Source: an uncultured Spartobacteria bacterium (GTDB lineage: Bacteria > Verrucomicrobiota > Verrucomicrobiia > Chthoniobacterales > Terrimicrobiaceae). From it: a stretch of DNA of 64,000 bases. Positions 1-62,752 of the stretch are shown here, in pieces. The stretch spans positions 1 through 64,000 of the forward strand of contig CALFPA010000132.1 in assembly GCA_937919825.1 (NCBI GenBank), written 5' to 3'. Both the position numbers and the translations under genes were made by a program. Each line of letters opens with the position of its first letter. The first letter of the stretch is position 1. The notes beneath the pieces were generated by a model. The model was given only the letters and a program-made list of their open reading frames with translations. It made no database searches and was not told the origin of the DNA.

Positions 1-425
1 GGTTGTTTCGCCGAAACGACCCAAATGAGGGGCAAAGCCGCCCACGCGCTTTGCCTAGGTTTCTCGCTGGACATCGAATGACTGACAACCGCAGGCGAGC
101 CGCCCGCGCCTGAAATTTGGGCCGACACGGAGGTCAGCCCTCCAAGCATTCGCGTTCCAAGTTTCAGGTTTCAAGTTTCCGGTTTCAGGTCTCTCCGCCC
201 TTCCGCTTCCCCTCCGCGCCACGGCGTCCCTGCGGGAGATTTCTCCGTGTGCCCCGTGACTTCGTGAGAGAATGTTTTTTCCGCAACGGCGCATGCGCGC
301 CTGAAACTTGGGGCATCTCGGCGATCTGCCCCTACCTTGGGGGAACGAAGGAGGAGTCGAATGCGCAGCAGCGCTATCAAGGAGCGTGGGCATCCCGCCC
401 ACATTGTTTTTGCCCGCGCCACCTT
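1..425. repeat. Mosaic of dispersed intergenic repeat modules
   Basis: No convincing gene is present here. The stretch is built from GC-rich modules that recur elsewhere in the window. A GTTTCG/CGAAAC hairpin at about 2-22 recurs at about 49457-49478. A block at about 95-190 ending in tandem TTTCAGG/TTTCAAG units recurs at about 49575-49672. A block at 295-375 recurs at about 49364-49440. The short reading frames across it are on both strands and follow the repeats, so they are not called. The function is unknown; the family resembles the abundant REP-like repeats of verrucomicrobial genomes. Confidence 0.7.
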
Positions 426-486
426 TTTTGGATTTTGGAACAAAGAGACTGGGATGCTCCTGTGAATCCCGTTGGACAGGCGCTGA

Positions 487-526
487 TGACAAAAAACGAT
501 CAATTTTTGTCATAATTCGAGAAGAC
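487..526 (+). promoter_or_regulatory. Candidate operator/promoter element, copy 1 (palindrome)
   Basis: The element contains perfect 9-bp inverted arms, TGACAAAAA (487-495) and TTTTTGTCA (504-512), separated by 8 bp. It continues into a conserved tail ending GAGAAGAC. A second 40-bp copy with the same length and 33 of 40 identical bases is at 58871-58910, before another operon. It lies 104 bp upstream of the sulfatase ATG at 616. Binding by a repressor or activator is inferred; the protein is not identified. Confidence 0.5.
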
Positions 527-615
527 AGCAAGGTGGCTGTTTGTTTAGATTTAAATCGATTGCGCTTGTCCCGCTTCCAACCGCCACCTCTCTTCCAGCA
601 GCCGTTTTTAATTTT

Positions 616-2163
616 ATGAATAGAACCTCCACGCTTATCACTGCGGTCTGTGCCGCGTTTTCATTGATCCATCCGGCCAATGCCGCCGAGCCCACCGCGC
701 CGGCCAAGCCGAACATCCTCTTCATCATCACCGACGACCAGGGCTACGGCGACTGGAGCGTTAATGGTCATCCGCTGCTGAAGACGCCGAATGCCGACAA
801 ACTCGCTGCCGAGAGCGTGCGCCTTGAGAATTTCTATGTGAGCGCCTCGTGCTCTCCGACACGCGCGGCGCTGCTCACCGGCATGCATGAATTCCGCAGC
901 GGGGTCACGCACACGCAGCATCCCCGCGTGAGCCTCCCCCATGACACCACCACCCTGCCGGAACTGCTCATCACGGCGGGATACCGCACGGGCTTCGTCG
1001 GCAAGTGGCATCTTGGCCAACCCCCGTCGGGGCATGGCTTCGAGTGGTGCTCTTCCAACTTGGGCGGCCCCTTCGAGCACTTCGACCCGAACATGGTCCG
1101 CAATGGAAAGAAAACCAAAGAGATCGGATACCGCGAGGATATCTATTTCAACGACGCGATGAATTTCATCACGGAAACCAAGGACAAGCCATGGTTCATG
1201 TATCTCTCCACCTACTCGCCGCACGATCCGCTCAAAGCGCCCGAGGAGTTCGTGGCTCCTTTCCGTGGGAAGGTCACCGAGGAACAAGCCCAGTATCTCG
1301 GCATGGTCGCCAACCTTGATTACAATATCGGCCGCATCATGGCGTTTCTGAAAGAGAAGAACCTCGATGAAAATACTATCGTCGTGCTCATCTCCGACAA
1401 CGGCCAGACCTATGGCCTGGATGTCTACAATGCCAACATGCGCGGCTGCAAAGCGACGGTCTGGGAAGGCGGCCTGCGCAGCTTCTCCTACTGGCGCTGG
1501 ACCGGTCACTGGCCGCCCCATCAGGTGGATAATCTCAGCGCGCACATCGATGTCCTCCCGACCCTCTGCGCGGCGGCAGGCGCCAAGATCCCCGAGGCTC
1601 TCCAACCGGAGATCGAAGGATTCAACCTCCTGCCCGTTCTCGAATCCAAAGACCCCATCGCCTGGCATGACGACCGCTTCCTTTACCACCATGTGGCCCG
1701 CTGGCCGGGAGGCATGGCCGCCGATCATAAATACGCCATGGCCGGAGCGCGGCAGGGGAACTACCTCCTCTTGCGCAGTCGGCCCTGCGACAATCCGGGC
1801 TGCGAGGAGGCGAATGGCCAGCAATGCGACACCCTGCGGAGCGTCGAGGCAGGAAGCAAACGGGCTGGTTACACGGCGGAAAATGCCCAATTTCACTGGG
1901 GCGTGACTCCTCCCGGACGCTGGGCTCTCTTCGAGGTGAAAAAAGACCCCGGCTGCATGAACGATCTCGCGGCCGCCGAACCCGAACGCGTGAAGGCGAT
2001 GGGCGCGGCCTATGACAAATGGTGGGATGCCACCTACCCTGTGATGGTCAAGCGCGGCGGAGATGCCGAGATCGTCTGGAGCAAGGTCCAAACCGATTTG
2101 ATAAACAAGAAAAAGGCCGCCAAAGCCGCCAAAGCAGAACAAGAGAAAAAAGCCGACCAGTAA
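616..2163 (+). CDS. Secreted type I sulfatase (arylsulfatase A-like, S1)
   Basis: Predicted exported sulfate-ester hydrolase of the alkaline-phosphatase-like fold. ATG at 616 is preferred over an upstream in-frame TTG at 541 because it opens a clean signal peptide (MNRTSTLITAVCAAFSLIHP, cleavage near NAA). The metal-binding start PNILFIITDDQGYGDW follows. The formylglycine site is C79-S-P-T-R, then AALLTG; GKWHLG and a SDNGQT metal motif are also present. The C-terminus is Lys/Ala rich. It is a close paralogue of the partial sulfatase at 62753. It is followed 24 bp later by another sulfatase, so probably co-transcribed. The substrate position on the glycan is not deducible. Confidence 0.9.
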   Translation: MNRTSTLITAVCAAFSLIHPANAAEPTAPAKPNILFIITDDQGYGDWSVNGHPLLKTPNADKLAAESVRLENFYVSASCSPTRAALLTGMHEFRSGVTHTQHPRVSLPHDTTTLPELLITAGYRTGFVGKWHLGQPPSGHGFEWCSSNLGGPFEHFDPNMVRNGKKTKEIGYREDIYFNDAMNFITETKDKPWFMYLSTYSPHDPLKAPEEFVAPFRGKVTEEQAQYLGMVANLDYNIGRIMAFLKEKNLDENTIVVLISDNGQTYGLDVYNANMRGCKATVWEGGLRSFSYWRWTGHWPPHQVDNLSAHIDVLPTLCAAAGAKIPEALQPEIEGFNLLPVLESKDPIAWHDDRFLYHHVARWPGGMAADHKYAMAGARQGNYLLLRSRPCDNPGCEEANGQQCDTLRSVEAGSKRAGYTAENAQFHWGVTPPGRWALFEVKKDPGCMNDLAAAEPERVKAMGAAYDKWWDATYPVMVKRGGDAEIVWSKVQTDLINKKKAAKAAKAEQEKKADQ

Positions 2164-2187
2164 TCCGAACTACCCCACAATCAAACC

Positions 2188-4056
2188 ATGATCAAACGCA
2201 CCCTCCTCGGCTTAAGCATCGCTCTGGCCATGCCCGCTCAGGCCGCCCCCGCTCCAAACATCGTGCTCATGCTTGCCGATGACCTCGGTTGGCAGGATGT
2301 GAAGTCCTACGACATCGACGCGCCGAGCCCGATGGATACCCCAAATATTGATGCATTGGCCAAGCGGGGGATTTTGTTCCGGCAAGGCTACTCTCCCGCG
2401 CCTACTTGCGCCCCCACGCGTTGCGCGATTATGAGTGGGAACCATCCAGCTCGCGCTCGCAAGACCCATGTGCTCGGCGGCGCGCCGCCCCATCCGTATT
2501 CCAAATCCAAATGGCGGATGATGGAGCCTTGGTATAGCGGTCGCATGCCAGAGGATGAAGTGACGTTGGCCAAAATTCTAAGGGAGAACGGGTATGCTAC
2601 CGGTCATTGCGGCAAGTGGCACATGGCGATCGATCATACCGCCTTTCCTCAGCCAGAGGACCAAGGGTTCGAGTGGACGCGCTCGAATCTCGGTGTGAGC
2701 AAGAAAATGACGCCCCACAGGCTCACCGGCTTTGCAACGAAAGGAGCCAAGGATCCATTTCACCTCGATGAAAAGGGGTTTGCTCGCGATCAGAACACAG
2801 AGGATGCGATCGAATTCATCGCTCTCCACAAGGACAGGCCTTTCTTCCTCTATCTGGCCACTTGGCTCGTGCATACACCGATTCACACCCGCAGTCGTGA
2901 ACTCCTCGACAAGTATGTAAAAAAATTGGGCGTCGACCTTCCCAAAAACCCGGGCGAATGGGCGGGGGAAGGGCAAACAAACCCCTTCTATTGCGCGATG
3001 GTGGAGGAATTTGATCACTACTTGGGGCAGTTGATCGAATATCTCGAAGCGACCGATGATCCCCGCAATCCAGGGCACAAGCTCATCGATAACACCTATA
3101 TCATTCTCACCTCGGATAATGGCGGGATGGAGCAGGTGCCCGGAGAAATTATCACCGATAATTACCCCTTGGATCGTGGCAAAATCTCGCTCATGGAGGG
3201 TGGCACGCGAGTTCCATTCATCGTCACTGGTCCAGGCGTGAAGGCGGGCGTTGATTCCGATGTCATGGTCAATGGATTGGACTTCTACCCCACAATTCTC
3301 TCACTGACAGGAGTAGAAAAACCCAAAGACAAGCACCTGGATGGAGCTGATCTGGAACCCTTGCTCCACGGTGATGCGACCGATCCCACGCTGGTCAAGG
3401 AATCGGACGGTCGCGCCCGTGACACGATGGTCTGGCATTTTCCAAATAGTGTGGCCCTCGAAAGCACGATCCGAATCGGAGACTACAAGCTCGTGCGCAA
3501 CTACGATCACGTGAACAATTCCCGCACGCCGGAGTTTGAGCTCTACCGCCTCTACCGTTCAGAAGGAGGCAAGCAGGTCCGTGAGGACATCGAGGAATCC
3601 AAAAATCTTGCCGCTGAAATGCCGGACAAGGTGCGTGAGATGAACAATCGCCTCACTGAAATCTTCACGGAGATGAAGGCCAACTACCCCTCATACAACC
3701 CCAAATTCCAAGGCAAACTCCCCCATAAGGAAACGGTTCCAGTGGTCATTGGGCATCAAATCAAGGGGGGCGACGTGGTGTTCACATTCAAGGAGCGGGG
3801 AGCCAAAGTTGTTCACGCCGACCTCATATACACACGCAACGGAAACCAGAAGGCCGAGGAATGGTTTTGTGTGCCAGCGGAGATTTTGGATGGTGGAAAA
3901 GTGTCGGCCACTCTGCCGGAGGGAGCCACCCACTGCTTCATCAACCTCATCGACGAACACAATTTTCTCGTTAGCCATCCAGACCCTCTAGGGAATGCCG
4001 ATGCAGCCCCCCCCAAAGCGAACTTTGCGGAAAATGCTATCACCGTGGTAAAATAA
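2188..4056 (+). CDS. Secreted type I sulfatase, tandem copy 1
   Basis: A 622-aa sulfatase with signal peptide MIKRTLLGLSIALAMPAQAA and N-terminal metal motif NIVLMLADDLGW. The formylglycine motif is C74-A-P-T-R, differing from CTPSR in the two following paralogues. GKWHMA and TSDNGG motifs are present. The C-terminal 100 residues form an extra domain (ITGH/VIGH..GGDVVFTFKERGAKVVHADLIYT) shared by all three tandem copies and probably a beta-sandwich. An 80-bp stretch (2269-2348) is identical to 4188-4267 of the next gene, indicating recent duplication or gene conversion. It lies 24 bp after the preceding sulfatase. Confidence 0.9.
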   Translation: MIKRTLLGLSIALAMPAQAAPAPNIVLMLADDLGWQDVKSYDIDAPSPMDTPNIDALAKRGILFRQGYSPAPTCAPTRCAIMSGNHPARARKTHVLGGAPPHPYSKSKWRMMEPWYSGRMPEDEVTLAKILRENGYATGHCGKWHMAIDHTAFPQPEDQGFEWTRSNLGVSKKMTPHRLTGFATKGAKDPFHLDEKGFARDQNTEDAIEFIALHKDRPFFLYLATWLVHTPIHTRSRELLDKYVKKLGVDLPKNPGEWAGEGQTNPFYCAMVEEFDHYLGQLIEYLEATDDPRNPGHKLIDNTYIILTSDNGGMEQVPGEIITDNYPLDRGKISLMEGGTRVPFIVTGPGVKAGVDSDVMVNGLDFYPTILSLTGVEKPKDKHLDGADLEPLLHGDATDPTLVKESDGRARDTMVWHFPNSVALESTIRIGDYKLVRNYDHVNNSRTPEFELYRLYRSEGGKQVREDIEESKNLAAEMPDKVREMNNRLTEIFTEMKANYPSYNPKFQGKLPHKETVPVVIGHQIKGGDVVFTFKERGAKVVHADLIYTRNGNQKAEEWFCVPAEILDGGKVSATLPEGATHCFINLIDEHNFLVSHPDPLGNADAAPPKANFAENAITVVK

Positions 4057-4103
4057 TTCTCGCGAACAGGGTGGGGGTGCTTTTCCCTCCAATGTCGACA
4101 GCC

Positions 4104-5933
4104 ATGATTAAAAGACTTCTTTTTGCCGTATCAATCCTTGGCATCGCCGCCTCCGCTTTCGCCAAACCCGCCCCGAATATCGTTTTGATGCTTGCCGATG
4201 ACCTCGGTTGGCAGGATGTGAAGTCCTACGACATCGACGCGCCGAGCCCGATGGATACCCCAAATATCGATGCCCTCGCCAAGCGCGGAATTCTCTTCCG
4301 GCACGCGTATTCGCCCGCTCCCAGTTGCACCCCGAGCCGTTGCGCGATCATGAGCGGCAACCATCCCGCCCGCGCCCAGACTACGCATGTCTCCGGAGGC
4401 AATCCCCCAGGGGCCAATGACAACCAGAGGTTGATCACGCCGTGGTTCAGCGGCCGCATGCCCGCCAACGAGCAGACGATCGCCAGAACGCTCCGCGAAA
4501 ACGGTTACGCCACCGGTCATGCCGGGAAGTGGCATATGTCACACGGCCATTTTGCTTTTCCGGGGCCGTTGGACCAAGGGTTTGATTTCACCACCCATCA
4601 AGGAAGCAATGCCCGGGGAGTGCAGAAGGGCATGAAAAACCGCCTCGAAGGATTCGCCACCGACAAACCCGGCGATCCCTACCGCCTCGATGCCGAGGGC
4701 TTCCCCACCGACTCCGTCACCGAGGGCGCGTTGAAGTTCATGGAGACCAACAAGGAGAAACCGTTCTTCCTTTACTACGCGACTTGGCTCGTCCACGCCC
4801 CCATCCAGTCGCGGAGCAAGGCGCTCCTCGACAAATACTGCCAAAAGCTCGGTGTTGACCCTGCCAACAGCAAAGAGTGGACCACCGATGAAGGGCAGAA
4901 AAACCCCTACTACTGCGCGATGGTGGAAACATATGACCACTATGTCGGCCAGCTCATCAAATTCCTGGAAACCACCGACGACCCGCGCAATCCCGGCCAC
5001 AAGCTCATCGACAACACCTACATCTTCCTCTCCTCGGATAACGGCGGGGCGGAAGGGGGGCATCATGGTGAAAATTTCACCGACAACGCCCCGCTCGACG
5101 AAGGCAAAACCTCGCCGCGCGAGGGCGGTGTGCGTGTGCCGTTCCTCGTCGCCGGCCCGGGTATTCCCGCCGGCAAGGAGAGCGATGTCATGGTCAACGG
5201 CCTCGATTTTTACCCCACCATTCTCTCGATGGCCGGAGTTAAGAAGCCCGAAGGCAAAAACCTCGACGGCGCCAATCTCCAACCGCTGCTCACCGGGGCG
5301 TTGGAGGACTCCTCGCTCGTGCTCGACCAACACGGCAAGCCGCGCACGGAGATGATCTGGCACTACCCTCACGGCAATCACCAAAGCACGATCCGCACCG
5401 GGGATTTCAAACTCATCCGCAACTACGACACCGAGAGCAAAAAGGCGCCGGCGCTCGAACTCTACCGCCTCGTTGACACCAAAGACGGCAAGTCGGGCCG
5501 CGTGGATATCGAGGAAGCAAAAAACCTCGCCGCAGAACAGCCCGAAAAAGCCGCCGAGCTCAATGCCCGACTCACCGAAATCCTCGCCGAGATGAAGGCG
5601 AGCCTGCCCTACTGGAATCCCAACTGCAAATTCCGGCTACCCAACCAAAAGAAAGTGCCCGCCATCACGGGCCATACGGTGGATGGCCAAACGGTCACGG
5701 CGACCATCAAGGAAAACGGAGCCCGTGTCGTCCGCGCGGATGGGATTTACACCACAAAAGACACCCCGGGTGAATGGTTCCGCGTGATCGGGGAGGTGGA
5801 CGCCGGCACGGCCAAGATCACCCTCCCTGCAGAGGCCACCCAAACCTTCATCAACCTCATCGATGAAAACAATTTCATGGTGAGCTATCCCCAAGCCGGA
5901 GGCGCGATTCCGCTCGGAGCGGCGGCCAAGTAA
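4104..5933 (+). CDS. Secreted type I sulfatase, tandem copy 2
   Basis: A 609-aa sulfatase. ATG at 4104 is chosen because it aligns with the MIKR start of both neighbouring copies; in-frame starts at 4071 and 4092 are possible. The signal peptide ends near ASAFA. Motifs are NIVLMLADDLGW, formylglycine C75-T-P-S-R, GKWHMS and SSDNGG. The same C-terminal beta-rich extension as its neighbours is present (ITGHTVDGQTVTATIKENGA). It ends with GGAIPLGAAAK, a short low-complexity tail that is expanded in copy 3. It shares 122 identical bases (5082-5203) with copy 3. It is part of the same sulfatase run. Confidence 0.9.
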   Translation: MIKRLLFAVSILGIAASAFAKPAPNIVLMLADDLGWQDVKSYDIDAPSPMDTPNIDALAKRGILFRHAYSPAPSCTPSRCAIMSGNHPARAQTTHVSGGNPPGANDNQRLITPWFSGRMPANEQTIARTLRENGYATGHAGKWHMSHGHFAFPGPLDQGFDFTTHQGSNARGVQKGMKNRLEGFATDKPGDPYRLDAEGFPTDSVTEGALKFMETNKEKPFFLYYATWLVHAPIQSRSKALLDKYCQKLGVDPANSKEWTTDEGQKNPYYCAMVETYDHYVGQLIKFLETTDDPRNPGHKLIDNTYIFLSSDNGGAEGGHHGENFTDNAPLDEGKTSPREGGVRVPFLVAGPGIPAGKESDVMVNGLDFYPTILSMAGVKKPEGKNLDGANLQPLLTGALEDSSLVLDQHGKPRTEMIWHYPHGNHQSTIRTGDFKLIRNYDTESKKAPALELYRLVDTKDGKSGRVDIEEAKNLAAEQPEKAAELNARLTEILAEMKASLPYWNPNCKFRLPNQKKVPAITGHTVDGQTVTATIKENGARVVRADGIYTTKDTPGEWFRVIGEVDAGTAKITLPAEATQTFINLIDENNFMVSYPQAGGAIPLGAAAK

Positions 5934-5988
5934 GCCTCGTAGCGCAGGCCCCCGAACCCATCTCAATGACATTTAAAACCCAATCTCT

Positions 5989-7893
5989 ATGATCAAACGC
6001 ACACTCACCCTGCTCGGCCTGAGCCTTGCCCTAGCCATTCCCGCCCACGCCGCACCTCCTCCGAACATCGTTCTGATGCTCATCGACGACCTCGGTTGGC
6101 AGGATGTGAAATGCTACGACATCGACGCGCCGAGTCCGGCGGATACTCCGAATATGGACGCTCTCGCCAAGCGCGGCATTCTCTTCCGCCATGCGTATTC
6201 GCCTGCGCCGAGCTGCACGCCGAGCCGATGTGCGATCATGAGCGGCAACCATCCTGTCCGCGCCCAGACCACTTGTGTCGCGGGTGGCAAGCCGCCGGAG
6301 GCCCAGCCCAACAAAAAAATGATCACGCCGTGGTTCAGAGGCGGCATGCCTGCCAACGAACAGACAATGGCCAGAACGCTCCGCGAAAATGGCTACAAAA
6401 CCGGACACGCCGGAAAGTGGCATATGGGTGCTGGTCCGTTGGACCAAGGGTTTGACTTCACCACCTACGAAGATGCCCCCAACCGTCGCGGAGTCACGAA
6501 GGGCCGTAAGAATCGCCTCCAAGACTTCGCCACCGACCAGCCCGGCGATCCCTACCAACTGGATGCCGAGGGCTTCCCCACCGACTCCGTCACCGTAGGC
6601 GCGTTGAAGTTCATGGAGACGAACAAGGACAACCCTTTCTTCCTCTACTACGCGACTTGGCTCGTTCACACACCCATCCATTGCCGCAGCAAGGCGCTCG
6701 TCGACAAATACGCCCAAAGGCTCGGCGTCAATCCGGCCAATCCCAAACAGTGGCCTGTCGGTAAAGGTCAGAAAAATCCCTTCTACTGCGCCATGGTGGA
6801 GATGCTCGACCACTATGTTGGTCAGCTTGTTACATTCCTGGAAACCACCGACGACCCGCGCAATCCAGGCCACAAGCTCATCGACAACACCTACATCTTC
6901 TTTACTTCCGACAACGGCGGCGTGGAAAGAAGCAAGGGCGAAGGCATCAGTGACAACGCCCCGCTCGACGAAGGCAAAACCTCGCCGCGCGAGGGCGGTG
7001 TGCGTGTGCCGTTCCTCGTCGCCGGCCCGGGTATTCCCGCCGGCAAGGAGAGCGATGTCATGGTCAACGGCCTGGATTTTTATCCCACCATTCTTTCGAT
7101 GGCCGGGGTCAAGAAACCCGAAGGGAAAAACCTCGACGGTGCGGATCTCCTGCCGTTGCTGACTGGGGCGGTGGAGGATTCCTCGCTTGTTCTCGATCAA
7201 CACGGCAAGCCACGCACGGAAATGGTTTGGCACTATCCTCATTTTGGCAGGAACCAAAGCACGATCCGCGCGGGGGATTTCAAACTCATCCGCAACTACG
7301 AAACCGATAGCGGAAAACCGCCGGAACTCGAACTCTACCGCCTCGTGGACACCAAAGACGGCAAGTCGGCACGCGTGGATATTGAAGAGGCGAAAAACCT
7401 CGCTGCGGAACAGCCCGAGAAGGCGGCCGAACTGAATGCCCGCCTCACCGAAATCCTCACCGAGATGAAGGCCAGCCTGCCTTACTGGAATCCCAACTGC
7501 ATACTCCCGCTCACCAACAAGGAGAAAGCGCCCACCGTCACAGGGCATTCGGTGGATGGCCAAACGGTCACCGCGACCTTCCAGGAAAACGGCGCCCGCG
7601 TCGTCCGCGCGGATGCGATTTACACCACAAAAAACAGCGGAGGAGAGTGGTTCCGCATGATCGGCGAGGTGGATAACGGCACGGCCAAGCTCGCCCTGCC
7701 GCCAGAGGCCACCCAAGCCTTCATCAATCTCATCGATGAAAACAATTTCATGGTGAGCTATCCCCAATCAGCCGCTGCCGAGTCGAAAGGTAGCGGAGGT
7801 AAAGCCAAGGGTGGTGGCGACGGTGAAGACGAGGGCGGCGCAGCGCTCGGCGGCGCGATTCCTCTCGGCGGGGCGGCCAAAAAATCCTCTTAG
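5989..7893 (+). CDS. Secreted type I sulfatase, tandem copy 3 with low-complexity tail
   Basis: A 634-aa sulfatase with signal peptide MIKRTLTLLGLSLALAIPAHA. Motifs are NIVLMLIDDLGW (Ala replaced by Ile relative to its paralogues), formylglycine C76-T-P-S-R, GKWHMG and TSDNGG. It is nearest to the copy at 4104. After the shared C-terminal domain the protein carries about 25 extra Gly/Lys/Glu/Asp-rich residues (SKGSGGKAKGGGDGEDEGG) inserted before the common GGAIPLG tail, probably a flexible linker or a slippage expansion. The gene is 55 bp downstream of copy 2. Confidence 0.9.
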   Translation: MIKRTLTLLGLSLALAIPAHAAPPPNIVLMLIDDLGWQDVKCYDIDAPSPADTPNMDALAKRGILFRHAYSPAPSCTPSRCAIMSGNHPVRAQTTCVAGGKPPEAQPNKKMITPWFRGGMPANEQTMARTLRENGYKTGHAGKWHMGAGPLDQGFDFTTYEDAPNRRGVTKGRKNRLQDFATDQPGDPYQLDAEGFPTDSVTVGALKFMETNKDNPFFLYYATWLVHTPIHCRSKALVDKYAQRLGVNPANPKQWPVGKGQKNPFYCAMVEMLDHYVGQLVTFLETTDDPRNPGHKLIDNTYIFFTSDNGGVERSKGEGISDNAPLDEGKTSPREGGVRVPFLVAGPGIPAGKESDVMVNGLDFYPTILSMAGVKKPEGKNLDGADLLPLLTGAVEDSSLVLDQHGKPRTEMVWHYPHFGRNQSTIRAGDFKLIRNYETDSGKPPELELYRLVDTKDGKSARVDIEEAKNLAAEQPEKAAELNARLTEILTEMKASLPYWNPNCILPLTNKEKAPTVTGHSVDGQTVTATFQENGARVVRADAIYTTKNSGGEWFRMIGEVDNGTAKLALPPEATQAFINLIDENNFMVSYPQSAAAESKGSGGKAKGGGDGEDEGGAALGGAIPLGGAAKKSS

Positions 7894-7959
7894 CGCTGGC
7901 GCCTCAGCCCGTCTCTTTCCACCAATGTCCATATGATTTTTTGACAGCATTCAAGTAGG

Positions 7960-8013
7960 TCAGGCGTCTCGCCTGACATCGAAAGACCATCGCCCGCAGG
8001 CGGGACGCCTGCG
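7960..8013. repeat. Paired GC-rich hairpins between genes
   Basis: Two perfect small palindromes are present: TCAGGCG-TCT-CGCCTGA (7960-7976) and CGCAGGCG-GGA-CGCCTGCG (7995-8013). The intervening GACATCGAAAGAC resembles GACATCGAATGAC at about 70-83. This is a member of the dispersed hairpin repeats; it may act as an mRNA 3' boundary or terminator-like structure, although no T-run follows. Confidence 0.55.
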
Positions 8014-8039
8014 CTACATTCCAAATTCTTAATCGTTCC

Positions 8040-9569
8040 ATGAAAAAACTCCTCACCCTCGTCGCGGCCCTCGCGCTTTCCTTGCCGGCAGTCCGCGCGG
8101 ATGTGGTTCTGTCTTCGATTATTTCCAACGGCATGGTGCTCCAGCGCGGGGTCAAGGCTCCGGTCTGGGGCTGGGCCGATGCCGGGGAGGAGGTCACGGT
8201 CGAATTCGGGGGCCAGGTCAAAAAAGCGATGCCTGGCCCCGGCCGCAAGTGGATGGTGGAACTCGATCCGCTGGAGGCCTCCGCCACGCCGAGGAGCATG
8301 ACGATTTCCGGGAAAAACAAGATTCTCATCGAGAATATCCTGGTCGGTGAGGTCTGGATCGCCTCGGGCCAGTCGAATATGGAGTGGACATTCGACCGAC
8401 TAGATCCGGCCGAGCGGGAGTTTGCGGAGAGCCAGAAAGAAAATCCTCTCATCCGCGCCTTCCATGTCGATAAGCACCTCAAGGCCGGAATCCCGCTGGA
8501 TGACACCTCGGGAGTCTGGAAAGATGCCGCGCAAATGGTCGCGGGGCGGAACGGCGTCTCGGCGGTCGGCTTTTTCTTTGCGTTGGATCTGGCCAAGTCG
8601 CTCGGGATCCCTGTGGCGATTCTCGATGTGAACTGGGGTGGTCAAAAGATTGAACCCTTCCTCGCTCCCGAGGGATATCAGGCCGTCGGCTTGCCTTTCA
8701 AAGAACCCGACCGCCGCATTTCCAGAAACACCCAAGCGGCCGCCCACATCATCGCGGCGGGCATGGCCTCGCTCGAGGAGTCCTACCAAGCCGCTAAAAA
8801 AGGCCTCAAGATGGGCTTCGATGTGGTCAACCCCTACGGTGATGCGGAAAATTTCATCTACAATGCCATGGTTGCCCCGCTGGCTCCCTATGCGGTTCAA
8901 GGCACGATCTGGTATCAGGGCGAATCCAACCGTGGTTCGGAAGACTACCTCAAAAAACTCCAAGCCCTCTCGGCGGGATGGTCGCAGGTCTTCCGCGTGA
9001 AGGATATGCCACTCCTGATGGTGCAAATCGCTCCATTCGACTACTCCAAAGGCAAGGATCTCAACTTGAGTCTTCTCCCGGATACGATTTGGGCGACTCA
9101 ATACCAGGCGGCCGAAACGATCCCCGGAGTCGCCGTGGTTCCTATCCATGACACGAACATCGATATCACGGATATCCATCCCATCCACAAGCGCACCGTG
9201 GGAGAGCGTCTCGCTGCAACGGCTCTCAAAAACCAGTATCGAAAAGAGGGCGTCGTCGCATCCGCCCCGCGCTTCCAATCCGCCTCCCGCGAGGGATCGA
9301 AGGCGGTCGTTTCCTTCAGCGGTATTTTGAACGGCTTGACCACCAGCGATGGACAGGCGCCATCCTGGTTCGAGCTTTCGGGTGATGGCGTGTCCTTTGT
9401 TCCCGCCCAGGCCGAACTCCGGGGGAACACCGTGCTTGTCTCCGTCGAGTCGATCCCCGAGCCGAAATTTGTCCGCATGGGCTGGCGCGATGTCGCCATT
9501 CCGAACCTCAAGGACAAAGACGCCTGGCCGGCATTCTCCTTCCCTTCCCAGCCAGTGACGCAGCAATAG
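8040..9569 (+). CDS. Secreted SASA-type carbohydrate esterase (sialate O-acetylesterase-like)
   Basis: A 509-aa exported SGNH-type esterase expected to remove O-acetyl groups from sugars; sialate specificity is not implied. The signal peptide is MKKLLTLVAALALSLPAVRA. The N-terminal beta-sandwich region starts ISNGMVLQRG. The catalytic block is GEVWIASGQSNMEW with the nucleophilic Ser near residue 110. The PYAVQGTIWYQGESN block and the late DIHPIHK segment (Asp-x-x-His) complete the family pattern. It sits among sulfatases and GHs, consistent with deacetylation of the same glycan. Confidence 0.88.
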   Translation: MKKLLTLVAALALSLPAVRADVVLSSIISNGMVLQRGVKAPVWGWADAGEEVTVEFGGQVKKAMPGPGRKWMVELDPLEASATPRSMTISGKNKILIENILVGEVWIASGQSNMEWTFDRLDPAEREFAESQKENPLIRAFHVDKHLKAGIPLDDTSGVWKDAAQMVAGRNGVSAVGFFFALDLAKSLGIPVAILDVNWGGQKIEPFLAPEGYQAVGLPFKEPDRRISRNTQAAAHIIAAGMASLEESYQAAKKGLKMGFDVVNPYGDAENFIYNAMVAPLAPYAVQGTIWYQGESNRGSEDYLKKLQALSAGWSQVFRVKDMPLLMVQIAPFDYSKGKDLNLSLLPDTIWATQYQAAETIPGVAVVPIHDTNIDITDIHPIHKRTVGERLAATALKNQYRKEGVVASAPRFQSASREGSKAVVSFSGILNGLTTSDGQAPSWFELSGDGVSFVPAQAELRGNTVLVSVESIPEPKFVRMGWRDVAIPNLKDKDAWPAFSFPSQPVTQQ

Positions 9570-9588
9570 CAACGAGAGAATTTAAACC

Positions 9589-10458
9589 GTGAAAATCGCA
9601 CTACTTACCCTCTGTATCGGCGTCTCCAGCTTGTCTCTCGCTCAGAACGCCCAAACGGCAACCGCCTCGAAACTTATGATCGTCGCCCACCGGGGGTCTT
9701 CCGCACAGGCTCCAGAAAATACCCTGCCCGCCTTCCAACTGGCTTGGAAGCAAGGTGCCGATGCCATCGAGGGCGACTTCCAGTTGACCAAGGACGGGCA
9801 CATCGTGTGTTTCCATGACAAGGACACGAAGCGCGTCGATGGCCAGCAACTCGCCATCGCCGACGCCACCTTGGAGGAGTTGCGTCAACTCGATGTGGGC
9901 AGCATTCAGCCCCAAAACTCTGAGCGCGCCCTCCGCGCCTGGAGCAGCGACCAATACAAAGGCGTCCAGATGCCGACGATTGCCGAAGTTTTCGCCACCG
10001 TGCCTGCGGGAAAGAAAATCTTCATCGAAATCAAGTGCGGGCCCGAAATCATCGATCCTCTCCTGCGTGAACTCGCCTCCAGCGGATTGACCCCCGATCA
10101 GGTCGTGGTCATTGGCTTCGATAGCGCGTTGCTCAAATCCCTGAAAGATCGCGATCCGAAATGGCAGGTTGCCTGGCTTTGCTCCTTCGACAAAAAACCC
10201 AACGGCAAGCCCCGCATGGCCCCGGCCAGAGTCCTGAAAACCTTAAAGGCCATGCGCGCCCTCGCCCTCATGTCCGGCAGAGGGGATGTGGATAAGGGTC
10301 TGCTCGATCAAATGCGAGCCGCCGGCATCGAGCACTATGTCTGGACGATCAACGATCCCAAACTCGGCCCCACCTACAAGGCCCAAGGCGTGGACGCGAT
10401 CATTACCGATCTGCCCGCAGAAATGCGCGCCGCTTTAGTCGCATCGACCAACCCATGA
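9589..10458 (+). CDS. Secreted glycerophosphodiester phosphodiesterase-like protein (GDPD)
   Basis: A 289-aa TIM-barrel phosphodiesterase family member starting at GTG 9589 with a purine-rich upstream stretch (GAGAG). The signal peptide ends near SLAQ. Family motifs are visible: H34-R-G, ENTLPAF, DAIEGDFQLTKDG, HD (FHDKDTKR), EIKCG, and a C-terminal VWTINDP..DAIITDLP. The known reaction is hydrolysis of glycerophosphodiesters. Its place in a sulfatase/GH run suggests it could act on a phosphodiester or related substituent of the target glycan; that is inference. It overlaps the next gene by 4 bp (ATGA), so translational coupling is likely. Confidence 0.88.
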   Translation: MKIALLTLCIGVSSLSLAQNAQTATASKLMIVAHRGSSAQAPENTLPAFQLAWKQGADAIEGDFQLTKDGHIVCFHDKDTKRVDGQQLAIADATLEELRQLDVGSIQPQNSERALRAWSSDQYKGVQMPTIAEVFATVPAGKKIFIEIKCGPEIIDPLLRELASSGLTPDQVVVIGFDSALLKSLKDRDPKWQVAWLCSFDKKPNGKPRMAPARVLKTLKAMRALALMSGRGDVDKGLLDQMRAAGIEHYVWTINDPKLGPTYKAQGVDAIITDLPAEMRAALVASTNP

Positions 10459-12926: not shown

Positions 12927-13883
12927 ATGAAAGCTAAGAACATTCGAATAGCCCTGCTCACTTTGTGGCTTGGAGCAAGCGCCATTGCGTCAGACCAATC
13001 AGTCAACCCGATCCTCAAAGTGGGCGATCCCGGATTTCTTTACACCGCCGATCCCGCCGCCGAGGTCTTTGACGGCAAGGTCTATGTCTATTGCTCGCAC
13101 GATCAGCCGGATGCGAAGAACTTCAAGGGCATGCAGGACTACGTCTTGCTGGAATCTTCTGATCTCAAGACATGGATCAACCACGGGGTGGTTCTGAAGC
13201 CCCGGGAGTATTCGTGGGCGTCGGGCCAGATGAACGCGCCGGATGTCGCTTACAAGGACGGGTGGTATTATTTCTATTTTCCCTACGACAAAACCCATGT
13301 CGGCGTCGCCAAAAGCCAAACCCCCGTTGGACCCTGGAGCGAGGCGGTAACGGATAAAATCGGCACAATTTTCGATCCGTGCGTGTTCGTCGACGACGAC
13401 GGGCAGGCGTATATCTACGGCAACGACCACAAGGTCGATATCGGAGACAAGGGTTGGCATGTCATGGGGGCGCGGCTGAAGCCGAATATGATCGAGTTGG
13501 ACGGCCCGTGGCAGCGGCTTTCCGAGGAGGAAGTGAATGAGGCGGTCACGGTCTTCAAACGGAACGGCAAGTATTACTTCATGGCGCGCAAAGACAAAAA
13601 GACGGTCTATTTCATGGCCGATTCGCCCCTTCCGACCAAACCCTACGCGACCTTCCAAGGGGCCGTCACAGGCGATGTGATCGGCGCTCCCGCGCACACC
13701 TCGGCGATCGAGTTTTCCGGGCAGTGGTATCTGTTTTATCACCTCGGGAGTGAGGTGAATGAGGGAAGCTTCTTCCGTCGCTCCGTCTGTTTTGACAAGA
13801 TGGAATTCAACGAGGATGGCACCATCAAACCGGTTTCATTCACGCTGGGGAAGAGCCTCGGCGGGGAAAATGAAAGTCAATGA
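12927..13883 (+). CDS. Secreted GH43-like beta-propeller glycosidase
   Basis: A 318-aa protein with a five-bladed beta-propeller pattern. ATG at 12927 opens signal peptide MKAKNIRIALLTLWLGASAIAS; upstream in-frame codons lie in the repeat region. Acidic motifs fit the GH43 triad: TADPAAEVFDGKVYVY, FDPCVFVDDDGQAYIY and NEAVTVFKRNGKYYF. GH43 members act on beta-xylosides, alpha-arabinofuranosides or galactosides; specificity cannot be read here. A paralogue is at 15500, with a sulfatase between them, suggesting a duplicated GH43-sulfatase unit. Confidence 0.82.
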   Translation: MKAKNIRIALLTLWLGASAIASDQSVNPILKVGDPGFLYTADPAAEVFDGKVYVYCSHDQPDAKNFKGMQDYVLLESSDLKTWINHGVVLKPREYSWASGQMNAPDVAYKDGWYYFYFPYDKTHVGVAKSQTPVGPWSEAVTDKIGTIFDPCVFVDDDGQAYIYGNDHKVDIGDKGWHVMGARLKPNMIELDGPWQRLSEEEVNEAVTVFKRNGKYYFMARKDKKTVYFMADSPLPTKPYATFQGAVTGDVIGAPAHTSAIEFSGQWYLFYHLGSEVNEGSFFRRSVCFDKMEFNEDGTIKPVSFTLGKSLGGENESQ

Positions 13884-13908
13884 CCCAGGCAATAGAGCAA
13901 TCCACGAT

Positions 13909-16509: not shown

Positions 16510-16620
16510 AAATCAGTTGCTCGAATTTTTCGAATAACTGCTGCTGCCGGCAAAATCTCCAACGCTCCCTAAAACCTTCCTGTGAACCCTTTAAATCTTG
16601 TCATCCTGTCTAAAAACACC

Positions 16621-16860
16621 ATGCAAAACCTCTTCTTCCGCTCCGTGTCCTTTGACTCGCTCGCTCCCGCTCGTTTGATTCCCAGATTTCCCAATCTGCT
16701 CCTCCTGCGGAGCTGCCTTTGGCAGTCTATCTCGACCTTCCCAAGGTCTCGGTTCGCCCCTTCGCGGCCAACCTTCGGTTGCTCTACCTCGCGCCTGCCC
16801 CGGCGCTCGGTTGTGTCCTCCGTGGTTAATTTTCTTCTTCTGCTCCCCGCGTTCGCGATG
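16621..16860 (+). repeat. Repeat-derived 5' coding leader, copy A
   Basis: From its ATG (MQNLFFRSVSFDSLAPARL) to AFAMAS this segment matches the 5' end of the GH95 gene at 18523-18687, apart from an extra insertion of about 80 bp (roughly 16675-16755). It contains the CACGGAG repeat 17-mer in inverted orientation. The shared part encodes SVVNFLLLLPAFAMAS, a signal-peptide-like hydrophobic stretch. Confidence 0.8.
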
Positions 16861-28543: not shown

Positions 28544-28843
28544 ATGACAAAACCAACCGCTTCCAACCTTAGAAGAAAATCGATCCTCTGTTTCGCATTC
28601 TCCGTGATGTTCGCCCTATCCGCCCACGCCCTCGATCTCCATGTCGGCCCCGACGGCAATGGCGTCGTGCAACCCGAAGCGATCGCGATCCTTCTCGAGA
28701 CCGGGAAGTTGCTGGAAGCGAATCCCATCAAGAAAAGCCACCCGACGATCACCGCCGTTCCGCGCCTCAAGCAAGACAAGCCCGCCCCGGCCAAGGAGCA
28801 AGCCAATCCTGCTGCCAGTGCCGGGCTTCTCGAACACCCATGA
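28544..28843 (+). CDS. Small secreted protein with beta-helix-like N-terminus (probable gene remnant)
   Basis: A 99-aa reading frame. It has a signal-peptide-like start (SILCFAFSVMFALSAHA) followed by LDLHVGPDGNG, nearly the same as the mature start of the GH141-like protein at 30424 (ALDLHVASNGNDAN). After that it has no beta-helix sequence but VVQPEAIAILLETGKLLEAN and a Lys/Pro/Ala-rich tail. It overlaps the following sulfatase by 4 bp (ATGA), so it may be translated and coupled. It is most likely a deletion remnant of a GH141-like gene; a small functional protein cannot be excluded. Confidence 0.5.
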   Translation: MTKPTASNLRRKSILCFAFSVMFALSAHALDLHVGPDGNGVVQPEAIAILLETGKLLEANPIKKSHPTITAVPRLKQDKPAPAKEQANPAASAGLLEHP

Positions 28844-30423: not shown

Positions 30424-32805
30424 ATGCGAATCAGAAAAACTATTGCTTACAATACCCTTGCAGGCGTCATGTCTCTCGCTCTCACAGGGCATGCCCTCGC
30501 GCTCGATCTTCATGTCGCCTCGAATGGCAACGATGCCAATCCAGGAACCGAAGCCAAGCCGCTCGCCACGCTGTCGGCGGCTCGTGATGCCGCGAGGAAG
30601 GCGGTGGGCAAGGAAGCGGTCACCATCCATGTCGGCGACGGGGTTTACCACCTGCCGGAAACCCTCGTCTTCACTCCAGCGGACTCCGGCAGCGCGGAGT
30701 TTCCTGTTGTTTACCGAGCTGTGAATGAAGGCCGCGCCGTCTTGAGCGGCGGCTCGGAACTCCAGCTGGATTGGAAGCCCACCCGCGACGGCATCTTTCA
30801 AGCCGCGACGCCGCAGGGGCTGGAGATCGACCAGCTTTTCATAAACGGCAAGGCCCAGCGCATGGCCCGCTACCCGAATTTCGATGCCTCGAAAAAAACC
30901 GACGCCTACCAGGGCTACGCGGCGGATGCGTTTTCCAAGGAACGCGCCGCGAAGTGGGCGAATCCGGTCGGCGGGTTCATTCATGCCATGCACTACTCGC
31001 GCTGGGGCGGCTACCACTACCGCATCACCGGCAAGGATGCGGATGGCAATGTGACCTATGAGGGCGGATGGCAGAACAACCGCCAGATGGGCATGCACAA
31101 GGATTTTCGGATGGTGGAAAACATTTTCGAAGAACTCGACGCCCCCGGCGAGTGGTTCCATGACCGCAAGACCTCCACGCTGTATTTCCTGCCCGATAGG
31201 AAGACCGATCTGGCCAAGGCGAAAGTGGAAGTCGTCCGCTTGCGGCATCTCGTGGAGTTCGCCGGCACGCAGGAGAAGCCGGTGAAGCACATCACGCTGC
31301 AGGGCTTCACCGTGCGGCATGCGGCGCGCACTTTCATGGATTGCAAGGAACCGCTCCTGCGCTCGGATTGGACGATCTACCGCGGCGGGGCGTTTCTTCT
31401 CACCGGCACCGAGGATATCGAGATCCTCGATTGCGAGTTCGACCAGGTCGGCGGCAATGCCATTTTCGTGAACAACTACAACCGTCGTGTCCTGATCAAG
31501 GGCTGTCACATCCACGACGCCGGAGCCAGCGGCGTGTGCTTTGTGGGCGATCCCGCCGCCGTGCGCGATCCCTTGTTTGAATACAACGAGTCGCAAGACC
31601 TCACCAAAGTCGATCCCAAGCTCGGCCCGAAGAGTGACAACTATCCTGCCGATTCCATCGTGGAGGATTGCCTCATCCACGGCATCGGCCGCGTCGAGCG
31701 TCAACCGGCCGCCGTGCAGATTTCCATGGCCAAGGGAATCACCGTGCGCGACTGCTCGATTTACGACTGTGCCCGCGCGGGCATCAATATCAGCGAGGGA
31801 ACCTGGGGCGGACATCTCATCGAAGGCTGCGATGTGTTCGACACCGTTCTCGAGACCCACGACCACGGGTCGTTCAACTCTTGGGGGCGCGACCGCTTTT
31901 GGGACAAGAGCTACCCGAAGGTGGACAAAGCCGTGGCTCTCAACCCCGATCTTCCCTTCCTCGATTCCGTCACGCCGAACATCATCCGCAACAGCCGCTG
32001 GCGCTGCGACCATGGTTGGGATGTGGACCTCGACGACGGATCCACCAACTACGAAATCTACAACAATGTGTTTCTCAATGGCGGGCTCAAGCTGCGCGAG
32101 GGCTACCGCCGCATTGTGTCTAACAACATCGGCTACAACAGCACTGCCTATCCCAGTGTGTGGTTTAAGAACAGCCAGGACTCTCTGAAGAACAACATTT
32201 GGATGGCCGCCTATAGGCCGGCCCGCATGCCCAAAGACAAGTGGGGTGGAACGAGCGACAAAAACCTTTTCGTCGCCGATTTCGCGTTGAAGGAGGCGCA
32301 GGACAAAGGGTGGGACGCAAACTCCCTCGTCGGCGATCCGTTGTTCATCGACCCCGCGAATGCCGACTTCCGCGTGCGTGAGGATTCCCCCGCATTGAAA
32401 CTGGGCTTCAAAAATTTTCCGATGGATCGCTTCGGCGTCAAAAAACCCACGCTCAAAGCCATCGCCCGCACTCCGGAGATTCCACCCATGCAAGCGGAGA
32501 AAAAGAAACCCGGCCCCGCCACCGGCACATGGCTTGGAGCGCGCTTGCAGGAACTCGGCAGCGAGGCGTTTTCCGCCTACGGCATCGCCAAAGACGCTGG
32601 CGGTGTGGGGGTGATCGAGGTGCCGAACGGCTCTGCCGCCGCCCGCGCCGGATTAAAGTCTGGTGACCTCCTGATGCAAATCAACGGCAATCGCGTGGAG
32701 AAGATCGGACAAATTCGCAGGCTCACCGATCAATTCGACACTCGCCCGCTCACGCTGAACATCGTGCGCGATCAGTCGCCCATCACTCTGACGCTCCAAC
32801 CATGA
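30424..32805 (+). CDS. Secreted GH141-like beta-helix enzyme with C-terminal PDZ domain
   Basis: A 793-aa exported protein. After the signal peptide (ending GHALA) the right-handed beta-helix starts LDLHVASNGNDANPG, with VTIHVGDGVYHLPETLVFTP, DSGSAEFPVVYRAV and later strands such as HITLQGFTVRHAARTF and CHIHDAGASGVCFVGD. This matches the GH141 group, whose characterised members include alpha-L-fucosidase and xylanase activities. Residues about 698-790 are a PDZ fold (WLGARLQELGS, VIEVPNGSAAARAGLKSGDL, QINGNRVEKIGQIRRL). The PDZ could tether the enzyme to partner proteins or C-termini. It overlaps the FGE gene by 4 bp. Confidence 0.85.
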   Translation: MRIRKTIAYNTLAGVMSLALTGHALALDLHVASNGNDANPGTEAKPLATLSAARDAARKAVGKEAVTIHVGDGVYHLPETLVFTPADSGSAEFPVVYRAVNEGRAVLSGGSELQLDWKPTRDGIFQAATPQGLEIDQLFINGKAQRMARYPNFDASKKTDAYQGYAADAFSKERAAKWANPVGGFIHAMHYSRWGGYHYRITGKDADGNVTYEGGWQNNRQMGMHKDFRMVENIFEELDAPGEWFHDRKTSTLYFLPDRKTDLAKAKVEVVRLRHLVEFAGTQEKPVKHITLQGFTVRHAARTFMDCKEPLLRSDWTIYRGGAFLLTGTEDIEILDCEFDQVGGNAIFVNNYNRRVLIKGCHIHDAGASGVCFVGDPAAVRDPLFEYNESQDLTKVDPKLGPKSDNYPADSIVEDCLIHGIGRVERQPAAVQISMAKGITVRDCSIYDCARAGINISEGTWGGHLIEGCDVFDTVLETHDHGSFNSWGRDRFWDKSYPKVDKAVALNPDLPFLDSVTPNIIRNSRWRCDHGWDVDLDDGSTNYEIYNNVFLNGGLKLREGYRRIVSNNIGYNSTAYPSVWFKNSQDSLKNNIWMAAYRPARMPKDKWGGTSDKNLFVADFALKEAQDKGWDANSLVGDPLFIDPANADFRVREDSPALKLGFKNFPMDRFGVKKPTLKAIARTPEIPPMQAEKKKPGPATGTWLGARLQELGSEAFSAYGIAKDAGGVGVIEVPNGSAAARAGLKSGDLLMQINGNRVEKIGQIRRLTDQFDTRPLTLNIVRDQSPITLTLQP

Positions 32806-33890
32806 ACCGATGGGATTGCCGAGGGATTGGTTTTTTCCGAGCGACGGCGGTCGCCGCTTTGTTCGCCCTTCTCGTTGGCTGCGGGCCCAATGCCCAAGCA
32901 CCTCAGGGGATGGTTTTGATTCCCGGCGGTGAGTTCAACATGGGGAGCGAAGCAAATTTTGCATTCCCCAACGAAAAGCCCGTCCACCGCGTGCAGGTGG
33001 CTCCGTTTTTCCTGGATGCGCATCCCGTGACGAATGCGGAGTTCGCGAAATTCGTGGAGGCGACAGGCTACAAAACCGTGGCCGAGCGGGCCGTCGTGTG
33101 GGAGGAGATGCAAAAACAACTTCCGCCCGGAACCCCCAAACCCCCCGACGAAGTGCTCCAGCCTGGCTCGTTGGTTTTCCGTCCGACCTCCGGCCCAGTG
33201 GACTTGCGGAACATGTCGCAGTGGTGGATTTGGACAACGGGTGCCTCTTGGAAACATCCGGAAGGGCAGGGGAGTTCGATCCAAGATCGCGAGAACCATC
33301 CCGTCGTTCAAATCGCTTGGGAAGATGCACAGGCCTATGCGAAGTGGGCCGGGAAACGCCTGCCGACCGAGGCGGAATGGGAGTTTGCGGCCCGTGGAGG
33401 ACATGAGGGGCGGCGCTACGCCTGGGGCGACTTGGAAAGACCAGATGGCAAGATCATGCTCAACCGCTGGACGGGTGATTTTCCCTATCGCAACGACGCC
33501 CAGGATGGATTCGTCGGGACCTCTCCAGTGGGCTCGTTTCCGCCGAATGATTACAGACTCTTCGACATGGGAGGAAATGTCTGGAACTGGTGCTCCGACC
33601 TCTACCGCGCCGACACTTTCGCGGCCCGGGCCGAGGGAAATGCGGTTTGTTGCGACCCCGAGGGACCCGCGACCGCAGTGGGTGAGAAGCCGATGCCAGG
33701 CGATCCCTCCCCACCCACCGTTCCCGGAGCCGAGCGCCGCGTGACGAAAGGTGGTTCGTTTTTGTGCCATCCCTCGTATTGCGAAAGCTACCGCCCCGCC
33801 GCCCGCCGGGGAACCTCGCCTGATACGGGCAGCAGTCATGTCGGCTTCCGCTGCGCCATGGACGCGCCTTCTGCTCCGGAACAAAAGTAA
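32802..33890 (+). CDS. Formylglycine-generating enzyme (FGE/SUMF1-type sulfatase-activating), lipoprotein
   Basis: A 362-aa enzyme that oxidises the sulfatase active-site Cys to formylglycine. The N-terminus has a lipobox-like LLVGCG, so it is predicted to be a lipoprotein. The FGE fold is clear: GMVLIPGGEFNMGS, PVTNAEFAKFV, RLPTEAEWEFAARGG, YAWGD, DMGGNVWNWCSD. The catalytic segment GGSFLC322HPSYC327ESYRPAARRG carries both cysteines equivalent to those of human SUMF1 (CHRSYC), distinguishing it from generic SUMF1-domain proteins. It is translationally coupled to the GH141-PDZ gene (ATGA). It is the only maturase seen for the sulfatases here. Confidence 0.92.
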   Translation: MNRWDCRGIGFFRATAVAALFALLVGCGPNAQAPQGMVLIPGGEFNMGSEANFAFPNEKPVHRVQVAPFFLDAHPVTNAEFAKFVEATGYKTVAERAVVWEEMQKQLPPGTPKPPDEVLQPGSLVFRPTSGPVDLRNMSQWWIWTTGASWKHPEGQGSSIQDRENHPVVQIAWEDAQAYAKWAGKRLPTEAEWEFAARGGHEGRRYAWGDLERPDGKIMLNRWTGDFPYRNDAQDGFVGTSPVGSFPPNDYRLFDMGGNVWNWCSDLYRADTFAARAEGNAVCCDPEGPATAVGEKPMPGDPSPPTVPGAERRVTKGGSFLCHPSYCESYRPAARRGTSPDTGSSHVGFRCAMDAPSAPEQK

Positions 33891-62742: not shown

Positions 62743-62752
62743 CTTCATTCTT

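Follow-up and report, generated by a model that had tools for sequence, protein, structure and literature searches.

Known sulfatase clusters and the array considered here

Sulfatase repertoires are large in Verrucomicrobiota and Planctomycetota and bear on which sulfated polysaccharides can be used. Tandem gene families undergo gene conversion and unequal exchange, leaving identical patches in a diverged background and copy numbers that vary between species. For Planctomycetes P1-P3, the available part of one account describes adjacent sulfatases as mostly of different origin, which is put down to rearrangement or horizontal gene transfer, with one 76% pair taken as a recent tandem duplication; the same portion of text gives no base-level junction (PMC4807772). 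Verrucomicrobial clusters for sulfated fucose and rhamnose polysaccharides (PMC8857213) and sulfatase-rich freshwater verrucomicrobial MAGs (PMC5615132) have also been described, to judge from the accessible sections of both papers. Among solved structures the nearest to the sulfatases discussed below is AMOR_S1_16A (PDB 9fo1), followed by 6ust, 7stt, and the S1_16 enzymes BT3057 and BT3796; excerpts of the primary reports cover the roles of Trp79 and His149 in AMOR_S1_16A (PMC11760155) and the retention of the 0-subsite Trp in just 37% of S1_16 (PMC10154612).

The window analysed here, 64,000 nucleotides of contig CALFPA010000132.1 from an uncultured Spartobacteria bacterium (GCA_937919825.1), is like the clusters in the consulted part of PMC8857213, with sulfatases accompanied by GH29, GH43, GH106, GH2, GH31 and PF03629-type esterases. 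Its substrate is probably a sulfated polysaccharide containing fucose, xylose and rhamnose, and the names of related records suggest that the host genome is probably freshwater. Three consecutive sulfatase genes (c1, c2 and c3) are best explained as a small recombining S1 sulfatase array inside this sulfated-polysaccharide gene cluster. In contrast to Planctomycetes P1-P3, as far as the available text describes them, resident and apparently captured genes stand in one array with insertion edges visible; in contrast to textbook conversion in tandem families, one member, c1, did not arise as a paralogue in a shared duplication. A literature search returned no paper on gene conversion in tandem verrucomicrobial sulfatases or in connection with polysaccharide utilization. 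The underlying processes are already well known, and the locus is a legible scar of array building, offering a base-level view of repertoire growth through copy-number change, patch copying and the joining of a distant body to a resident front, and a caution that similar genes in a row need not reflect simple duplication.

Layout and copy number

Features of the array and its surroundings are collected in Table 1. All three genes score far above the PF00884 cut-off of 25 bits (c1 146.5, c2 143.2, c3 140.6). An S0 orthologue, 92-93% identical, lies immediately 5' of the array in G009 (locus L108) and in L030, and the SASA esterase lies 3' of it in L107 and L030; between these anchors there is one copy in L107, two in L030 and three here, the counts in relatives depending partly on contig edges. 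By eye, the junction between c2 and c3 looks like that between copies A and B of L030. The mechanical open reading frame of c2 begins upstream of its ATG, at GTG 4071. The product of the formylglycine-generating-enzyme-like gene is the probable maturase of the array sulfatases.

Table 1. Positions of the array, its anchors and its repeated tracts in the window
Feature	Position	Strand	Evidence
S0, S1-type sulfatase, upstream, syntenic left anchor	541..2163	+	PF00884, E 4e-56
Gap between S0 and c1, 24 bp, resident type	2164..2187	+	gap comparison with L108 and L035
c1, sulfatase, 622 aa, CAPTR, chimeric (resident-type front, other-clade body)	2188..4056	+	
R1, 80-bp direct-repeat copy, putative left edge of insert	2269..2348	+	exact repeat; MaxChi 2366/2367
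Putative insert: c1 body, 47-bp spacer, atypical c2 5' end	2349..4187	+	
c2, sulfatase, 609 aa, CTPSR, resident body, non-resident-looking signal peptide	ATG 4104..5933	+	
R2, other 80-bp direct-repeat copy, putative right edge of insert	4188..4267	+	exact repeat
Identical 122-bp tract in c2, coding for residues around conserved Lys K335	5082..5203	+	
c3, sulfatase, 634 aa, CTPSR, Gly/Asp-rich tail	5989..7893	+	
Identical 122-bp tract in c3	6952..7073	+	
SASA-type esterase, syntenic right anchor	8040..9569	+	PF03629
Formylglycine-generating-enzyme-like gene, same cluster	32802..33890	+	PF03781, E 2e-85

Identical tracts in a diverged background

A preliminary description of this DNA had reported 122 bp identical between c2 and c3 and 80 bp identical between c1 and c2 against diverged flanks, and both identities are exact, with 0 differences; no other exact direct repeat in bases 1-12000 is as long, the next measuring 39 bp. 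Overall identity is 62% (amino acid) and 65% (nucleotide) for c1-c2, 61% and 63% for c1-c3, and 81% and 83% for c2-c3. In the sliding-window synonymous comparison proposed there as a check, divergence proved uneven along the genes rather than uniform: pS between c2 and c3 is 0.39 over the whole and 0.03 at the 122-bp tract, where a stretch of 40 successive codons without synonymous change was matched in 10/20,000 shuffles, and between c1 and c2, at an overall pS of 0.68, a 23-codon unchanged run was matched in 0/20,000. Against an empirical null of 171 pairs from 19 rows (the partial gene G5_L114 having been dropped), 122 bp is the top exact run among 30 pairs of 79-87% nucleotide identity (runner-up 75), and 80 bp the top among 101 pairs below 70% (runner-up 36); after correction over the 171 pairs the c2-c3 run is borderline (P 0.0003 in 4,000 shuffles, or 0.0005, against a threshold of 0.00029). 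Site counts against the alleles of relatives do not single out c2 or c3 as the source of the 122-bp exchange.

Relationships of the gene bodies

The bodies of c2 and c3 are members of one resident clade. The c1 body groups with L109, L119 and L120 at 98/97 in a 19-row body tree, and falls in the other clade also in a 48-row protein tree (SH-aLRT 93). The partial gene G5_L114 was left out of both trees, of a set of 33 chosen loci and of the MaxChi test below, L171 (internal stop) was left out of that set, and L166, L167 and L168 were dropped from the 48-row tree as duplicates of L037, L063 and L067. In the body tree, c1, c2 and c3 as one clade are rejected (p-AU 4e-133), as are c2 and c3 as exclusive sisters (p-AU 9e-10), the latter because c3 is nearer to genes of G008 and G009. 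The tandem triplication named in the preliminary description is thereby contradicted, and its fuller version, one gene triplicated in tandem, with copies diverging for different sulfate positions under ongoing conversion, is highly improbable: the genes have orientation, domains and exact stretches in common, but the c1 body is closer to other clades, and the difference in formylglycine motif occurs as variation throughout the family. Rather, c2 and c3 appear to be old relatives with a recently common short DNA stretch, and c1 a spliced-in distant relative.

A probable switch of front ends

The gap between S0 and c1 agrees at 22/24 bases with the corresponding gap, whose sequence L108 and L035 have in common. 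Over its first 81 bp, c1 lies at a distance of 0.14-0.25 from 11 resident genes (c2 not counted) and 0.57-0.59 from L109/L119/L120, the corresponding values for the remainder being 0.38-0.41 and 0.36-0.37. MaxChi on 205 sites places a breakpoint at 2366/2367, with resident-like states at 17/19 sites to the left and 49/186 to the right, a split equally extreme in 0/10,000 shuffles; for this test and the resident-base counts below, the groups (11 resident, 17 other rows) were picked by the analyst. In trees of the 5' segment, c1 falls within the 13-row resident group at 100/99 (48 rows, bootstrap not fully settled) and 83/94 (19 rows); AU tests on this short segment were not significant for c1 forced into its own clade (p 0.219, 19 rows) or outside the resident group (p 0.134, 48 rows).

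The front of c2 is atypical, at a distance of 0.40-0.47 from the same 11 resident genes, against 0.15-0.23 for its remainder; near-invariant resident bases are present at 37/56 positions 5' of R2 and 1023/1057 positions 3' of it (Fisher 3e-13). This front end could be a fast-diverged resident front. It begins MIKR, as residents do. The 80-bp repeats are located at both switch points, and the identity that had been taken for a conversion patch, exact as it is, is better read as an insertion edge. Within the 80 bp, L112 of a third clade is as near to c1 as the residents are (11/80), so the stretch is widely conserved. The GC content of the 1.84-kb putative insert is 0.542, against 0.59-0.60 in S0, c2, c3 and SASA, which is low, not extreme, 7.7% of same-size windows being lower still.

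A proposed history and its alternatives

The favoured reading, to which a probability of about 60% is given, is that the array was built by capture of an other-clade body with front-end exchange, plus separate copying of a tract between c2 and c3. The c2 and c3 lineages would have parted before the split from G008/G009, or been swapped between related species. Homologous recombination within a conserved 5' stretch (~LGWQDVKxYDID) may have brought in an other-clade sulfatase body. With that step the resident gap and signal peptide, together with the first 54-60 resident codons, would have come to precede the c1 body, either edge would have been marked by an 80-bp direct repeat, and the resident body of c2 would have received the incoming front end. 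Presumably the insertion happened once, either in Campbell-like fashion or out of a tandem array in the donor, and the c2 front end would derive from the donor. Separately and recently, the 122-bp tract encoding residues near the conserved lysine K335 would have been copied between c2 and c3. No donor of the c1 body was found, the best relative reaching 64% across 213 order genomes and, when a phylum sample of 387 genomes was taken together with loci from genome contigs, 68-69%; for the c2 front end, 16 genus genomes gave no close match (best non-self match 23 bp).

Conversion could instead have produced everything, with c1 already beside c2, a resident copy overwriting the c1 sequence from the upstream gap through the signal peptide to the first codons, the 80-bp identity coming from a patch copied later from c2, and the front of c2 having merely diverged. 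The 5' 81 bp of c1, resident-like yet 0.44 from c2, make two steps with different donors possible, and c2-c3 show that copies do exchange at this locus; such a history is nevertheless unlikely, requiring some three separate events and a conversion tract spanning the gap between S0 and c1, and leaving the 80-bp identity at both switch points to chance. Preservation of the identical stretches by selection on DNA or protein, without recombination, is scarcely credible. Both lie in conserved parts, and in 15 other pairs compared the rate of change within the 122-bp tract is 0.44-0.95 times that outside it, but those pairs differ at 9-17 of its 122 sites, the chance of 0 differences is ~8e-5 even at 0.44 x 0.17, and no exact match to either stretch occurs in any fetched locus beyond the window's own contig. 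The c2-c3 patch exceeds local constraint, the mark of gene conversion, if borderline after the 171-pair correction. Of the conversion claimed earlier, recent exchange between copies stands, and in place of 'ongoing' conversion there are at least two events so recent that no difference has built up.

The locus is known from MAG contigs alone, and an assembler might have used the identical stretches to bridge separate genes or strains. The assembly is fragmented (143 contigs), and related contigs start or stop at the array, L107 beginning within the tail of S0 and L108 stopping within the first array copy. Against this, it can be argued that crossing at R alone cannot yield a contiguous c1 body, spacer and c2 front, and that the observed order is the sole linear path through two R copies; L030, moreover, a MAG of another species, carries two array copies at this same position. 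An artefact is very unlikely. As an extension of the capture reading, the conserved 5' stretch might be a plug-in point, at which one incoming catalytic body after another is joined downstream of a resident promoter, gap and signal peptide, with resident and newcomer trading front ends. This is a doubtful generalisation; if true, a new sulfate specificity would be expressed and exported immediately.

Enzyme features

AMOR_S1_16A (9fo1) has the same fold as the array sulfatases (TMt 0.84, 35% identity) and has the formylglycine motif, Ca ligands and sulfate-site Lys/His in common with them, the match spanning residues 25-510 of the 609 in the c2 query, with ~100 extra C-terminal residues uncovered. 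It is top in both sequence and structure searches and is an S1_16 enzyme, a SulfAtlas subfamily membership that is not claimed for the array. By a hand count on the alignment, its 0-subsite Trp79 corresponds to Val96, invariant in the 50 sequences aligned, and its His149, in a gapped stretch, to Met177; His125 is present as H144.

The C/S-x-P-S/A/T-R motif, the Ca ligands D32, D33, D312 and N313, and K142, H144, H231 and K335 are present in c1, c2 and c3, the set including catalytic and sulfate-site residues. Since the set is kept in all three and omega is 0.14-0.28 for c2 and c3 pairs, all would be expected to be active sulfatases. A literature search on pseudosulfatases or inactive sulfatases returned no paper.

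The extra C-terminal domain reported earlier is real and present in all three (strands at 520-595 in the c2 model) but is family-wide rather than specific to the array, many positions of residues 574-596 being at least 90% conserved in 50 aligned relatives, chosen from the window and fetched loci (L046, L049, L055 and others omitted). It matched nothing above a cut-off in Pfam, and an NCBIfam search reached no curated cut-off. The contrast between CAPTR in c1 and CTPSR in c2 and c3 is likewise genuine, without bearing on sulfate position: CAPTR recurs in L112, L059, L060, L065, L067, L077, L175 and L180, and CAPSR, CSPSR and CTPSR are scattered through the family. A better hint of functional change, on sequence grounds, may be c3, where 6 residues next to the active-site GKWH motif are missing after GKWHM (from ~6427).

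Origins of the array

Compared over the gene bodies, that is, the part of each gene after the 80-bp tract, the three consecutive sulfatases c1, c2 and c3 have separate relationships: the c1 body groups with genes at three loci of relatives, L109, L119 and L120 (support 98/97), and the c2 and c3 bodies lie in a separate, resident clade with loci L107, L108, L030, L111, L110 and others. The tandem triplication proposed in the preliminary description is rejected as a clade of all three (p-AU 4e-133). An exclusive c2 and c3 pair was likewise rejected (p-AU 9e-10), because c3 is sister to a gene of relative genome G009, followed by one of G008. A wider protein tree (48 rows) again puts c1 beside L109/L119/L120 (SH-aLRT 93), surrounded by genes from Kiritimatiellota, Opitutia, Planctomycetota, Lentisphaerota and Bacteroidota; judged by these two trees, c2 and c3 are residents and c1 is of other origin, from elsewhere in the family.

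Relatives of the locus share the upstream sulfatase S0 as left anchor and SASA (an esterase gene)-GDPD-GH120 on the right. A single copy separates the S0 tail from SASA in L107, two copies (91% identical in protein) lie between S0 and SASA in L030, and three are present here; the c2|c3 junction resembles, by eye, that between copies A and B of L030. The L107 and L108 contigs are less informative, since the former starts in the S0 tail and the latter stops inside the first copy. L111 has a single copy adjoining S0, and its contig of 5.3 kb gave no match to SASA. An S0 relative adjoins the copy in L035; its ORF has 377 aa, but the 92% match to S0 covers only 205 residues, suggesting that S0 is rearranged in that genome.

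Front ends and proposed insertion

The S0|c1 gap is 24 bp long, 22 positions being equal to the gap of L108 and L035. The signal-peptide region after it is of the resident clade's usual type, although it forms the front of c1. The first 81 bp of c1 differ by 0.14-0.25 from 11 resident genes (c2 excluded), against 0.57-0.59 from L109/L119/L120, and MaxChi (205 informative sites) places a switch with 17/19 resident-like sites to its left and 49/186 to its right (0/10,000 shuffles as extreme). Conversely, c2 is a resident body with an atypical front: of the near-invariant resident bases it carries 37/56 ahead of the repeat and 1023/1057 beyond it (Fisher 3e-13). Both switch points fall at the 80-bp repeats, between which GC is 0.542, compared with 0.59-0.60 in S0, c2, c3 and SASA, a low but not extreme value (7.7% of same-size window segments are lower).

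The simplest single event giving the observed order would be insertion of one unit, comprising the c1 body, spacer and a front end, by recombination within the conserved 5' stretch, either in the manner of a single-crossover integration or with a tandem array as donor. The present front end of c2 would then derive from the donor's c1-type gene. No close relative of the c1 body was found among 213 order genomes (best 64%), the closest in a 387-genome phylum sample plus the named loci reaching only 68-69%, and no close match to the c2 front occurs in the 16 genus genomes (15 others that were searched, plus the window's own: 2.71 Mb, 143 contigs, 99% complete, the window being bases 1-64000 of contig 132). 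Conversion alone may instead have produced the array: for the short 5' segment, the alternatives are not rejected by AU tests (p 0.219 and 0.134).

The claimed 122-bp (c2/c3) and 80-bp (c1/c2) identities are both exact, and both are unusual in synonymous-run shuffles, as longest exact run (171 pairs of 19 rows) and against the local rate in 15 other pairs. Among 30 pairs of like identity, the c2-c3 run of 122 is followed by one of 75; this is strong by the empirical null, but borderline once corrected over all 171 pairs. The genes plainly do not diverge evenly along their length, so the uniformity that the preliminary description named as counter-evidence fails. The 122-bp tract encodes the residues around conserved lysine K335. 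An earlier site count for c2 as its donor was circular and has been withdrawn; counts of sites with relatives agreeing against c2 or c3 favour no direction decisively.

Adjacent sulfatases of differing origin have been reported in Planctomycetes (available portions of PMC4807772). Searches covering few subscription journals found no literature on sulfatases with gene conversion in Verrucomicrobi, or on gene conversion with polysaccharide clusters; the processes are already known, and this array is a new, rather legible example. Names of related Verrucomicrobiota MAGs (for example VFJO01000081, LacPavin and Loclat bins) suggest a lake origin of the organism.

Protein function and gene cluster

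All three proteins carry the sulfatase domain and the FGly motif, together with the calcium ligands and the residues of the sulfate site. c2 and c3 look functional from their low NG86 omega (c2, 0.14-0.20 against four relatives; c3, 0.24 against the G009 gene and 0.28 against the G008 gene); dS is saturated for c1. The nearest solved enzymes are S1_16 sulfatases; however, a tryptophan of AMOR_S1_16A with a pocket role (PMC11760155 and PMC10154612, in part) aligns with Val96 here, so neither S1_16 membership nor Gal-4-sulfate specificity is claimed. c3 lacks six residues directly after GKWHM, adjoining the active site, the sole case among 19 rows; they include H149 (≥90% conserved in a 50-row alignment), and their loss is the best sequence hint of altered specificity. 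The extra C-terminal domain described earlier is present (about residues 510-600) but family-wide rather than special to the array; the model of c2 (mean pLDDT 87.1) shows it as a beta domain, and a Pfam search gave nothing above a cut-off. A Gly/Asp-rich C-terminal tail occurs in c3, L107 and L030A and is absent from c2 and L030B, and is thus independent of array position.

Around the array lie family matches (GH120, GH43, GH95, GH29, GH106, GH31, GH2), more sulfatases, a sugar transporter, an AraC-type regulator and a gene of FGE type. Together they suggest as target a sulfated polysaccharide containing fucose, xylose and rhamnose, in agreement with published verrucomicrobial clusters (PMC8857213, in part). 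Seven sulfatases besides c1-c3 lie in the window or run off its edge; genome-wide, matches fall in 48 places, some being pieces of one gene.

Coordinates of the array, further sulfatase genes and compared loci
Feature	Position	Strand
S0, further sulfatase gene	541-2163	
c1	2188-4056	+
80-bp tract (c1 = c2)	2269-2348 = 4188-4267	
c1 switch	2366/2367	
Between repeats	2349-4187	
c2	4104-5933	+
122-bp tract (c2 = c3)	5082-5203 = 6952-7073	
c3	5989-7893	+
c3 six-residue loss	6412-6430	
c3 tail	7770-7890	
SASA	8040-9569	
Further sulfatase gene	13759-15432	
Further sulfatase gene	16582-18213	
Further sulfatase gene	23424-25094	
Further sulfatase gene	28840-30393	
Further sulfatase gene	43961-46084	-
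Further sulfatase gene	62708-64000	
S0 relative	L035:6704-7837	
c1 sister gene	L109:4651-6651	
c1 sister gene	L119:5970-7949	
c1 sister gene	L120:8771-10768	

The sister genes of c1, found in 3/16 genus genomes, carry changes of calcium ligand D33 to S, the FGly Cys to Ser, N313 to S and K335 to A or S, and look like dead sulfatases, possibly a conserved pseudosulfatase. Their omega is 0.06-0.07 (3 pairs, dS 0.56-0.82), below the 0.14-0.28 of 10 intact pairs (dS <1), and one or two S0-type sulfatases lie downstream of each.
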